Source: Verrucomicrobium sp. BvORR034
GTDB lineage: Bacteria > Verrucomicrobiota > Verrucomicrobiia > Verrucomicrobiales > Verrucomicrobiaceae
NCBI RefSeq assembly: GCF_000739635.1
Contig: NZ_BATQ01000117.1
Location: 62,001 to 126,000, forward strand
DNA: 64,000 nucleotides
Direction: 5' to 3'
Shown here one piece after another: positions 33,913 through 37,914 of the stretch; the stretch's first letter is position 1; every line of letters starts with the position of its first letter. Below the pieces are notes generated by a model that did not search any database, was not told the origin of the DNA, and saw only the letters and a program-made list of their open reading frames with translations. Position numbers and translations under genes: made by a program.

Positions 33913-36423
33913 ATGAGCAACTCCGCCATTACCCTGCAATGCCCAAGCTGTGGAGGCATCTTCATCACTTTGCAGCAGAGCAGCGGCCCCATGGAAATTT
34001 GTCCGCACTGCGCAGTTTCCTCGCCCCGCAACCTGTTCCTCCCGGCTCAAGGTGGACCACAACCTCGGCATCGCACCACACTGCCATCTCGCCGGGCTGC
34101 AGGCGAGCCCCCCCGACTGACACACCTGGAGACTGAGAACCCGGCCACCGACGGCAGAGGCATCACTCCCGGAGCAGGCACCACACCCAGTCAGGGCATC
34201 GGCCATACGCTCCCCCCTCCAGCGACCATTCCCCAGACCTGGGAGCCGGCGCCTCAACTCGCTCCCCAAGGACACGGCCTACCGGGAACTGCCAGCTTCG
34301 CCCCCCATCCCGCCCCACCCTCATTCACGCCTTCAGCACCTTCTTATGGACAGCCGGTGCAGCCAATCGCGCCCCCGGTTGAGGCAGCGCCAACCATCAC
34401 CCCACCTCCAGCACAGCTGCCGGAGTTGCACTTCCCCGCGGTGACTTGGGATGCTCCGCCTGCCCAGCAGACGGCTCCAGTTCCCGACCCAGCACTTGGC
34501 GCTTGGCACCACGCTCCGCACCCCGCGCCCGCCGCAGCCCACGGATTTGCCGCTCCCCCGGCGGCATTGCCATTTCCTGCACCAGCTCCGCCCATTGCAC
34601 CCATGGCACCGTCCGGGCCAGCTCCAGCGATGGCACCCCCGGCGTCACCTCTACAACTGCCGCCTCCACCTCAGTTTGCCCCAGAGCAGCAGGCCACCGC
34701 CTATACGAGACCGGACGCCAATTTTGGATCGGTGGGCCCTCCAATTTCGACCTCACATTTCACACCGGCACCCGCGCCGGAAATAGCGCCCGAGCCGCCA
34801 CCAGCATTCATACCTGCGCCAGGACCTCCCCCTGGCTTTGGCTTTCCAACAACATTTGCCCCTTCCCCACCGGCGGAAACATCGGCCCCCAGCGCATTTG
34901 CGGGGCCGAACCACCCCTCGGGATGGGGGCCTCCCGTGTCACCGGCCGCCGCACCGCAGTGGTCACCGGGTGCGATTCAGATTCAACCCAACCAAGCCCC
35001 CCCAGAGCCGCGGGTCGATGCCGCTGTAACGTCGCCACCTGCCTCCTCTTCTGAGTTTGGCGGCGTCAATCCCCTCACGAAGCCCGCTGGCACCCCCGCC
35101 CCCCCTGCCAACACTCCTCTCGCGTTCTTCGGCATACCCGCACAGGAGGAGCCGGTGGAAGCCATTCCAGGGCACCCGACTCCGCCTGCAGAGCAACTTC
35201 CAGCCGTCCAGCCCGCCCCATTCTCCTGGCCACCACAGCAATCGGCACCAGGAGTTCCCCAAGCGGCAGTCGGCAACTCTTTGGGTTGGGCACCCGGAGC
35301 GCCACCCATCGCTCACGCGGCGCAACAGTTCGCCCATCACCCTCTTCCGCCTGTTGAGCCAGTCAATCACCCTCCACCAATGTGGCCCGGACTGGGCTTG
35401 GAAGGCAGCGATCAGCGCAATCATCCCTTTGCCAATCTGTTTGGCCGTGATGCGCCCCCTCAGGCCGATCAGGTCGCCATTGCGTCAGGAGTTGTGGACG
35501 GAGCCGCCCCGCCCCCAACGACCAAACGCACCTCAACCGTCTTGGTGATCTTGTTGCTCGCCATCATCGGCAGCACCTTCTGGTACGTGTGGAAGAATCG
35601 CGCCAAGCTGCTCAAGCTGGCCCCTTCCAGCCAGGCGGAAACCATCATCCCGCTCCCCCTGCCCTCCCTGGAGTTCGCGCCTGCCGCCTCGCCCGACCCC
35701 GCTCCAGCCGCAACGCTCGAACCAGCCATAGATCCTCTGGATGCCGCCACGCCGGATATCACCCATAACATCGCCGCCGCAGATCGTGCGGCAGTCTTGG
35801 TGAAGACGCTGGACGCCGCCAGCACCGAGGAGAACCGTCTCAAGGTCATCTTTCACGCGCAGGATCACAAGGCAGACGTGAAGCGGTTCTTTGACTCCCT
35901 CGGCAACCAGCTTAAGCCGATTCTGCTCGATCCCACCCCGGCCGTCGTCAACCCTCTCCTCGCTGGCCCTAAACTTCGTCTCTTTCGCCTGGTGACAGCC
36001 ACTTGCGCCAAGGGGGCCGTTCTTCGCATGGAGCCCGGCCCCAATGACACCCAGCTTCTTGACTGGCCGCTGTTCATGCAGACGCATGAGCAGCATTTTG
36101 ACAAGTTTGTGAAATCAAACCCGGCCCCTGAGCAGCGCAAGGCAGAGTGGTTCTCCGTCCTTTGCAAACGGCGGCACGATTTTGACCTGCCCAAGGACAC
36201 TCAAGATGCCTATGTCTGTCTCGAAGCGCAGGGCTCCCTGTCACCGGAGGGTAGCACCGTGCTCTACGTCAACAAGGGCCTGCCCGCTGGCCGCCTTCTC
36301 GAAACCCACCTGAAGTGGGCCGAGATCTACCTGGTGGATTTGCTCGTGGGCAAGGCTGAAATCGGGGGGAGCACCACTCACGTAGTCCTCGATTGTACTG
36401 GTACGGACACGGCTCGGAAATAG
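33913..36423 (+). CDS. Zinc-ribbon, proline-rich single-pass membrane protein (unrecognised C-domain)
   Basis: This 836-residue protein starts with a zinc ribbon, C10-P-S-C13 and C30-P-H-C33. Residues ~40-535 are a Pro/Ala/Gln-rich low-complexity linker. One membrane helix lies at ~541-560 (VLVILLLAIIGSTFWYVW). The final ~275 residues form a folded-looking domain (VKTLDAASTEENRLKVIF, LLAGPKLRLFRLVTATC, LLETHLKWAEIYLVDLLVG) that I cannot assign. With the ribbon at the N-terminus and no signal peptide, the ribbon should be cytoplasmic and the C-domain periplasmic. The gene ends 90 nt before rpoN, whose sigma-54 promoter starts 25 nt after this stop. Confidence 0.8.
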   Translation: MSNSAITLQCPSCGGIFITLQQSSGPMEICPHCAVSSPRNLFLPAQGGPQPRHRTTLPSRRAAGEPPRLTHLETENPATDGRGITPGAGTTPSQGIGHTLPPPATIPQTWEPAPQLAPQGHGLPGTASFAPHPAPPSFTPSAPSYGQPVQPIAPPVEAAPTITPPPAQLPELHFPAVTWDAPPAQQTAPVPDPALGAWHHAPHPAPAAAHGFAAPPAALPFPAPAPPIAPMAPSGPAPAMAPPASPLQLPPPPQFAPEQQATAYTRPDANFGSVGPPISTSHFTPAPAPEIAPEPPPAFIPAPGPPPGFGFPTTFAPSPPAETSAPSAFAGPNHPSGWGPPVSPAAAPQWSPGAIQIQPNQAPPEPRVDAAVTSPPASSSEFGGVNPLTKPAGTPAPPANTPLAFFGIPAQEEPVEAIPGHPTPPAEQLPAVQPAPFSWPPQQSAPGVPQAAVGNSLGWAPGAPPIAHAAQQFAHHPLPPVEPVNHPPPMWPGLGLEGSDQRNHPFANLFGRDAPPQADQVAIASGVVDGAAPPPTTKRTSTVLVILLLAIIGSTFWYVWKNRAKLLKLAPSSQAETIIPLPLPSLEFAPAASPDPAPAATLEPAIDPLDAATPDITHNIAAADRAAVLVKTLDAASTEENRLKVIFHAQDHKADVKRFFDSLGNQLKPILLDPTPAVVNPLLAGPKLRLFRLVTATCAKGAVLRMEPGPNDTQLLDWPLFMQTHEQHFDKFVKSNPAPEQRKAEWFSVLCKRRHDFDLPKDTQDAYVCLEAQGSLSPEGSTVLYVNKGLPAGRLLETHLKWAEIYLVDLLVGKAEIGGSTTHVVLDCTGTDTARK

Positions 36424-36447
36424 CTCGCTATGGAAATTTTGACGATC

Positions 36448-36463
36448 TGGCACGTATTTTGCT
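36448..36463 (+). promoter_or_regulatory. Consensus sigma-54 (-24/-12) promoter of rpoN
   Basis: TGGCACGTATTTTGCT matches the sigma-54 consensus TGGCACG-N4-TTGC(A/T) at every fixed position, with GG and GC separated by 10 nt. It lies 51 nt upstream of the rpoN ATG and reads towards it, so RNA polymerase carrying RpoN probably transcribes its own gene. Confidence 0.8.
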
Positions 36464-36488
36464 TGCATCCTTCTTGAAGTGGGATTCT

Positions 36489-36507
36489 ATGAGGCGGTAA
36501 ACCTCAT
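36489..36507 (+). promoter_or_regulatory. Small hairpin in the rpoN leader
   Basis: ATGAGG and CCTCAT form a 6-bp stem around a 7-nt loop, ending 6 nt before the rpoN ATG. It occupies the place where a Shine-Dalgarno would be (GAGG lies in the 5' arm), so it could limit translation. Chance is possible. Confidence 0.3.
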
Positions 36508-36513
36508 TCCACT

Positions 36514-37914
36514 ATGTCAAGTCAAGGCCTCTTTCAGCATCAAGCGCTCAAGCAGGTCATCGGGCCTCAGATGCAGCAGAGCCTGCAAATTCTGCAGGCT
36601 CCTGCTATGGAGCTTCAGCAGATCATTCAACAAGAAGTCGCCGTGAATCCGGTGCTCGAGGTTGAGTCCCCTGAAGTTTCCCTCGATCAAACAGCTTCAG
36701 AAGACCCCGATTCGGACATCTCGAATCTCTCTCGCCTGGATGAAGAATGGCGCGAGTACTATGCCCAGAATCGTGCCCAGTCCACCCCTCGCACGTCTGA
36801 CGACGAGGAACGGCATCGATTCATGATGGACTCCATTGTGGCGCAGACCACGCTTCAGGAACATCTGCTCAGCCAGCTCAACTTGAGCGAGGTGCAGGAC
36901 GCTCAGATGCGCGAGATGTGCGAGTTCATCATCGGGAACATTGATGACGACGGATTGCTTCACACCACGTTGGAGGAGTTGAGCCTGCGTCACGCCCTTC
37001 GTCTGGATGATCTGGAGAAGGCCAAAGCACTTGTGCAGAGCTTCGAGCCGGCTGGAGTCGGCGCGGAGAACCTGCGCGAGTGCCTGCTATTGCAACTGGA
37101 GCGCCAGGGGCGCAAGGCCAGCCTGGCCTACCGCATTGTGGATCATCACCTCGGAGACCTGGCCCACAAGCGCTACACTCTGCTTTCCAAAAAGCTCGCC
37201 GCTCCCCCTGATCAAATCAGTCGCGCCGTGGAGGTTGTCGCCGGGCTGGACCCCCGTCCAGCACAGGGCTTCGCCGTGATGCGCAATCATTACGTCACAC
37301 CGGACATCCACGTGGAGCGGCAGAACTCCGAGTTCGTGGCGGTGATGAACAACACCGATCTCCCGCATCTCCGCATTAGTAATGCCTACAAGGACATTTT
37401 AGCGCAGCCCGAAACCGGCAGCGAAGCCCGCAGCTACATCCGCGAAAAGATTCGCGGAGCCAAATTCCTGATCCGCAGCATCGCGCAACGCCAGCAGACG
37501 ATCCAGCGGATCGCTGCAGAAATCCTGAAGCACCAGCACGACTTCTTCGAAAAGGGGCCGAGCCAGCTCAAACCTCTGAACATGGCGACTGTGGCGGAGG
37601 CAGTGGGCGTGCACGAAACGACCGTGAGCCGGGCCATCGCTGGCAAATACATGGCCACTCCACACGGTGTGTTCGAGCTGAAGTACTTCTTCACCAGTGG
37701 CGTGCGAACTGAGGCAGGAGACGATGTCAGCAATACGGCGGTGAAGAACTCCATTGCGGAAATCATCAAGAACGAGCCCCCACAAAAGCCCTACTCGGAC
37801 GAGCAGTTGGTCAAACACCTCGGTCAGCGCGGCATCAAGGTCGCACGCCGTACCGTGGCCAAGTACCGGGAGGCCATGGGGGTGCTTCCCAGCCATTTGC
37901 GCAAAAGTGCGTGA
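36514..37914 (+). CDS. rpoN: RNA polymerase sigma-54 factor RpoN
   Basis: This 466-residue protein has the three RpoN regions: the Gln/Leu-rich region I (QMQQSLQILQAPAMELQQII), an acidic region II, and the core- and DNA-binding region III. The helix-turn-helix reads NMATVAEAVGVHETTVSRAI, and the RpoN box A444-RRTVAKYRE-453 reads the -24 element. The factor directs polymerase to -24/-12 promoters and needs AAA+ activators with ATP. The total length is close to that of other RpoNs. A consensus sigma-54 promoter sits directly upstream. No activator or nitrogen genes are nearby. Confidence 0.97.
   Translation: MSSQGLFQHQALKQVIGPQMQQSLQILQAPAMELQQIIQQEVAVNPVLEVESPEVSLDQTASEDPDSDISNLSRLDEEWREYYAQNRAQSTPRTSDDEERHRFMMDSIVAQTTLQEHLLSQLNLSEVQDAQMREMCEFIIGNIDDDGLLHTTLEELSLRHALRLDDLEKAKALVQSFEPAGVGAENLRECLLLQLERQGRKASLAYRIVDHHLGDLAHKRYTLLSKKLAAPPDQISRAVEVVAGLDPRPAQGFAVMRNHYVTPDIHVERQNSEFVAVMNNTDLPHLRISNAYKDILAQPETGSEARSYIREKIRGAKFLIRSIAQRQQTIQRIAAEILKHQHDFFEKGPSQLKPLNMATVAEAVGVHETTVSRAIAGKYMATPHGVFELKYFFTSGVRTEAGDDVSNTAVKNSIAEIIKNEPPQKPYSDEQLVKHLGQRGIKVARRTVAKYREAMGVLPSHLRKSA

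Follow-up and report, generated by a model that had tools for sequence, protein, structure and literature searches.

The rpoN locus

The window, meaning the whole stretch of 64,000 nucleotides of Verrucomicrobium sp. BvORR034 that was analysed, carries on its forward strand an rpoN gene (36514-37914) encoding a sigma-54 of 466 amino acids, which matches PF00309, PF04963 and PF04552 and is full length, with the activator-interacting, core-binding and DNA-binding domains all present. The best matches of this protein in the named collection are from Verrucomicrobiota, and no second rpoN was found in the 8.58 Mb genome (G000). The downstream neighbour is a gene for an Mrp/NUBPL-like ATPase; directly upstream, and co-directional with rpoN, is an ORF of 836 amino acids (33913-36423) whose proline/alanine-rich product gave no Pfam match.

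Between this ORF and rpoN lies a sigma-54 -24/-12 site, TGGCACGTATTTTGCT (36448-36463, forward strand), assigned on an exact match and on conservation in the family. It reads TGGCACG-N4-TTGCT, with the GG of the -24 element (36449-36450) and the GC of the -12 element (36461-36462) at canonical spacing, and shows zero mismatches to the consensus TGGCACGNNNNTTGCT, of which it is the sole perfect match on either strand of the 64 kb (0.01 expected from shuffles). The first-pass annotation had described the site as fitting the -24/-12 consensus at every fixed position and as ending 50 nt ahead of the rpoN ATG (36514); the match is indeed complete and the coordinates give the same gap. Counting 12 nt on from the C of the -12 element, a transcription start for sigma-54 RNA polymerase is predicted at 36474 on the forward strand, the offset at which the family-wide hairpin signal described below also begins.

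Searched across the whole genome, TGGCACN5TTGCW occurs 13 times compared with 5 for the reversed control, and TGGCAYRN4TTGCW occurs 6 times compared with 4. These counts were too near the reversed control for a genome-wide sigma-54 regulon to be drawn up by pattern, and that attempt was dropped. Given that the short motif is not rare enough genome-wide, the case for TGGCACGTATTTTGCT must rest on its position and its conservation.

A sigma-54 promoter would require an AAA+ activator, which had been noted as absent from the window, and a PF00158 profile search of the window likewise gave no strong match to such a protein. Elsewhere in the genome there are nine strong PF00158 matches, counted among the best 13 of 18 matches (the remaining five being weaker), and these nine genes are candidate activators as judged from their sequence.

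Conservation of the site within the family

The upstream DNA of 55 rpoN loci was compared within the window's family, in which 57 of 59 genomes have rpoN; two of these (G037 and G042) were not taken in, and the other two genomes gave no rpoN match. A site was counted where GG and GC were both present, 9 or more of the 12 consensus positions matched and the distance to the start was at most 100 nt, so that four bases of every counted site are fixed by selection. Such a site was present at 54 of the 55 loci, which are not phylogenetically independent, compared with 3.3% of dinucleotide shuffles, and the same search returned 4/55 on the reverse strand and 0/55 in a stretch inside the gene. All 54 aligned sites share TGGC and TGCTT (the GG and GC among these being fixed by the selection), many positions to either side are close to random, and in different genera the site is preceded by differing upstream sequences. 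Alignment of the region in relatives, the check proposed in the first-pass annotation, thus found the -24/-12 bases conserved in close and distant relatives, and given a real and conserved site, the autoregulation of rpoN by sigma-54 proposed there is still the best reading.

Three further observations were made. At L100, a family member in genus g7, the forward site has been lost and a perfect inverted site, TGGCACGATTTTTGCT, lies farther upstream; the upstream ORF there is co-directional. At 31 of 54 loci of the family (f1; L120 and L121 for example), where 0.23 would be expected, the short element RTGCCA precedes the -24 element of the sigma-54 site by 46-48 nt; it is followed by a T-tract and then an A-tract, is absent from the window's genus, and has the appearance either of a -24 half-site in inverted orientation or of a binding site for an activator. 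Finally, five g8 genomes carry a second rpoN (rpoN2, L143-L147), about 39% identical and with a GTG start, upstream of which are -24/-12-like sites mostly ending in TGCA instead of TGCT; in one of the genomes examined (G010) a gene for an enhancer-binding protein lies about 0.5 kb from rpoN2.

The leader hairpin

Directly before the ATG, on the forward strand, is a 5'-leader hairpin (36478-36513) of 12 pairs (-13.0 kcal/mol, z -2.7) with a 6-bp core of ATGAGG/CCTCAT. A hairpin near the rpoN ATG had been proposed as a 6-bp structure closing over the GAGG. The hairpin exists and is longer than described, but its role as a lid on the GAGG is unsupported: GAGG (36491-36494) lies 19 nt ahead of the ATG, a greater distance than an ordinary Shine-Dalgarno sequence allows, and most of the family is without it, so sequestration was rejected. 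A mini-ORF overlapping the hairpin, ATGAGGCGGTAA (36489-36500), was also rejected as it is not conserved; the corresponding ATG reads in frame into rpoN at L010 and is followed at once by a stop at L011.

Across the family, the predicted transcript retains a hairpin close to its 5' end while the sequence of the hairpin changes. The folding signal peaks over the 36 nt that follow the predicted sigma-54 start (family mean z -1.0), compared with mean z values of -0.3 to +0.8 for stretches at offsets of 10 or less or of 40 or more. Of the 52 leaders with a fold of -5 kcal/mol or better, 50 have a hairpin that starts 0-7 nt after the predicted start. The signal is absent from forward sites outside the order (mean z 0.1-0.2, n=24). 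Among other members of the order, neither seven leaders of family f2 (mean z -0.4) nor the leaders of L299 and L300 showed a significant signal, and the hairpin is therefore taken as limited to the window's family. An Rfam search of the leader returned no known RNA family.

Support for pairing differs between subclades. Among the 16 related leaders of set A1, pairing holds in 88% of cells compared with 29-61% for slid structures, 8 cells have changed on both sides in a compensatory manner and there are many G-U pairs; in 11 others (A2) support from covariation is weak. Both sets consist of close relatives that were sorted by leader type before counting. For a third set (A3, eight leaders including that of the window) RNAalifold returned no consensus structure, perhaps as a result of a poor alignment, and most of its members fold singly.

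The G-U pairs point to RNA, and both arms of the hairpin should therefore be transcribed. A sigma-70 start in the register seen elsewhere in the class would fall inside the hairpin, while the sigma-54 start falls just before it, and this is the main reason that transcription driven by sigma-54 is preferred for the family. Most simply, the hairpin may protect the 5' end of the mRNA, a role that its beginning 0-7 nt after the predicted start would suit.

rpoN upstream regions across the class

For the class Verrucomicrobiia, 189 genomes were drawn, of which 186 have rpoN. One hundred loci outside the window's family were examined, five of them taken from the named collection; together they represent about 50 families. 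Loci whose gene was partial or whose upstream DNA was too short were dropped (for example L193, L267, L279-L282 and L284-L291). Within 100 nt of the start, sites were found in the forward orientation at 35 of the 100 loci and on the opposite strand at 24, some of which overlap a forward site, compared with 2% in shuffles. The inverted sites are concentrated 35-70 nt ahead of the start codon. When forward sites up to 110 nt and inverted sites at 35-70 nt were set against each other, 36 loci had a forward site only, 15 an inverted site only, none both and 49 neither, a mutual exclusion with a Fisher p of 0.0009, uncorrected for relatedness.

Several of the inverted sites face a divergent gene, encoding an MBL-fold hydrolase, MiaB, HtpG or an SDR protein. 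At L252 and L261, however, the gene upstream of the inverted site is co-directional, with Pfam support (a KDPG/KHG aldolase and a histidine kinase with receiver, respectively), and at L220 there is a co-directional upstream ORF with no Pfam match. An MBL-fold gene is divergent from rpoN at L244 and L265 too, where the site is forward.

Many of the loci outside the family also carry what resembles a leaderless sigma-70-type promoter, defined as TTGnnn-N15-18-TAnnnT-N4-13 followed by the start (ATG). This pattern occurs at 48 of the 100 loci, compared with 0.3% of random upstream places, and is found with forward sites (14/36), with inverted sites (11/17) and with neither (23/47). Measured from the forward site, TTG is present at offset 15 in 24 of 36 loci and TAnnnT at offsets 36-39 in 16 of 36, other offsets giving 0-3. 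The resulting promoter is TTGnnn-N16/17-TAnnnT, whose -35 element touches the sigma-54 -12 element and whose -10 element ends a few nucleotides ahead of the start codon, giving it its leaderless look. Where the site is inverted, the leaderless pattern lies mostly downstream of it. In class relatives the sigma-54 site thus overlaps or abuts a recognisable sigma-70-type promoter in either orientation. In genus g12 of family f2 (L268-L278 and L283), whose genomes measure 2.2-3.5 Mb, no sigma-54 site was counted upstream of rpoN, and the leaderless pattern is present at every one of the 12 loci with enough upstream DNA.

A further 40 class genomes, 39 of them usable (L340 gave no start codon), were examined against five tests set beforehand; as they come from the same families as the first sample, they provide a check on consistency and not on independent origins. 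Forward sites were present at 11 loci, inverted sites at 4, both at 0 and the leaderless pattern at 9 (shuffle rates of 1.5, 0.6 and 0.9% for forward, inverted and leaderless); TAnnnT stood at the preset offset in 3 of the 11 forward sites, and all 4 inverted-site loci had the leaderless pattern.

The same register can be followed in the window's family. In the window, TTGCAT (36463-36468, forward strand) occupies the position of the class-wide -35 element and TTCTAT (36485-36490, forward strand) that of the class-wide TAnnnT -10 element, the A of which it lacks. This A is needed by sigma-70. Among the family loci, 50 of 54 keep TTG at the -35 offset, 1 of 54 has TAnnnT in register for the -10 and 0 of 54 have the full leaderless pattern; TTnnnT occurs at offsets 37-39 in 27 of 54, with 16 of these at offset 38. 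Promoter and terminator calling over 36100-36560 returned no sigma-70 promoter and no terminator. The TTG/TTnnnT remnant may be either a fossil or a weak living sigma-70 promoter.

Discussion

The arrangement described here suggests that the sigma-54 site upstream of rpoN has been put to two uses. Its recurrence on or beside a sigma-70-type -35 element, in either orientation, points to autorepression by occlusion as a widespread function of the site in the class: sigma-54 RNA polymerase would form a stable closed complex that needs an activator to proceed, would exclude the sigma-70 polymerase meanwhile, and would thereby cap the level of sigma-54. The -10 element of the sigma-70 promoter has been lost from the window's family, where rpoN is probably transcribed by sigma-54 itself, most likely from the site at 36448-36463 with a start near 36474 and a 5' hairpin leader. 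The window's rpoN would then depend on sigma-54 and an AAA+ activator, with a basal supply of sigma-54 coming from read-through or from the remnant sigma-70 promoter. On balance this combined account, in which TGGCACGTATTTTGCT is predicted to be a genuine binding site for sigma-54 holoenzyme through which sigma-54 controls its own gene, by occlusion in the class and by initiation in the family, is considered the probable one, on the strength of the sequence comparisons; the 49 of 100 class loci without a counted site count against it.

Given that overlap of the site with a -35 element is the common arrangement in the class, and that repression of overlapping sigma-70 promoters by sigma-54 is known from PMC4551910, it might be argued that autorepression operates in the window too, with a weak TTGCAT-N16-TTCTAT promoter (36463-36490) driving rpoN and sigma-54 at 36448-36463 only blocking it. 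The retained TTG and the TTnnnT in half of the family loci speak for this, and are the main evidence against a gene driven purely by sigma-54. It is nevertheless judged unlikely: the -10 element is without its A, no sigma-70 promoter was called, a single close clade supplies many of the TTnnnT cases (the 16 at offset 38), and transcription from such a start would take in only part of a G-U-paired hairpin. The window has the sigma-54 and the sigma-70-type elements in register with each other, which would allow sigma-54 to initiate when its activator is active and otherwise to block a weak sigma-70 start, but such dual control meets the objections to both pure models and is regarded as a distinctly improbable arrangement. 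That TGGCACGTATTTTGCT is a functionless chance match finds some encouragement in the genome-wide counts, where short -24/-12 patterns are only slightly commoner than the reversed control, yet is hardly credible for a site held in the same place at 54 of 55 family loci while the flanks diverge.

For the class, the question is whether the inverted sites bear on rpoN at all, given that many of them face MBL-fold, MiaB, HtpG and SDR genes and could be the sigma-54 promoters of these divergent neighbours. This is thought rather doubtful, as the position relative to rpoN is kept though the neighbours differ, forward and inverted sites exclude each other, the upstream genes of L252 and L261 (and of L220, by ORF) are co-directional, and the divergent MBL-fold gene also accompanies forward sites. 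A broader proposal is that sigma-54 acts class-wide as an autorepressor indifferent to the orientation of its site, and that in the window's family the sigma-70 promoter decayed and the operator took over as promoter, so that a gene once under negative feedback came to depend on its own product and gained a folded leader. This is put forward only tentatively.

Autoregulation of rpoN by sigma-54 is not new as such: according to PMC12316311, rpoN (COG1508) is enriched among predicted sigma-54 targets in Verrucomicrobiia and other classes, from which autoregulation was inferred, and the view in the first-pass annotation that such autoregulation is not the rule is therefore too strong. The present site resembles that prediction in being a -24/-12 site upstream of rpoN in the same class; the overlap with sigma-70 elements, the inverted sites and the change in one family are not described in the available part of that text. 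A literature search over titles and the beginnings of abstracts, with subscription journals mostly outside its reach, returned nothing on an rpoN overlap, inverted sites or a promoter change in the phylum. What is new here is the class-wide arrangement of a leaderless sigma-70-type promoter with a sigma-54 site, forward or inverted.

Several described systems offer partial parallels. Competition between sigma-54 and sigma-70 has been shown in vitro with purified E. coli components (PMC4551910), where the sigma-54 site likewise overlaps a sigma-70 footprint; the targets there are argT, chaC, mdfA and patA, whereas here the target would be rpoN itself, as proposed from sequence. PMC4591121 describes repression by sigma-54 when it binds over another promoter, and rpoN of Rhizobium leguminosarum is stated to be negatively autoregulated (PMC3538637), the same net outcome as is suggested here for the greater part of the class, the comparison being one of effect and not of site architecture. 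Leaderless genes with a TANNNT -10 element adjoining the start codon are reported in PMC3160421 and resemble the class relatives, in which a -10-like element stands a few nucleotides before the ATG; the window's family differs in that its leader would be 40 nt long and folded.

If the proposed account is true, a single conserved site acts as operator in much of the class and as promoter in one family, and a feedback loop that changes its sign is seen at the level of sequence. To our knowledge, it has seldom been established what sets the level of sigma-54 itself. The finding would also bear on an idea raised in PMC4551910, that sigma-54 may act as a repressor besides being an activator-dependent initiator.
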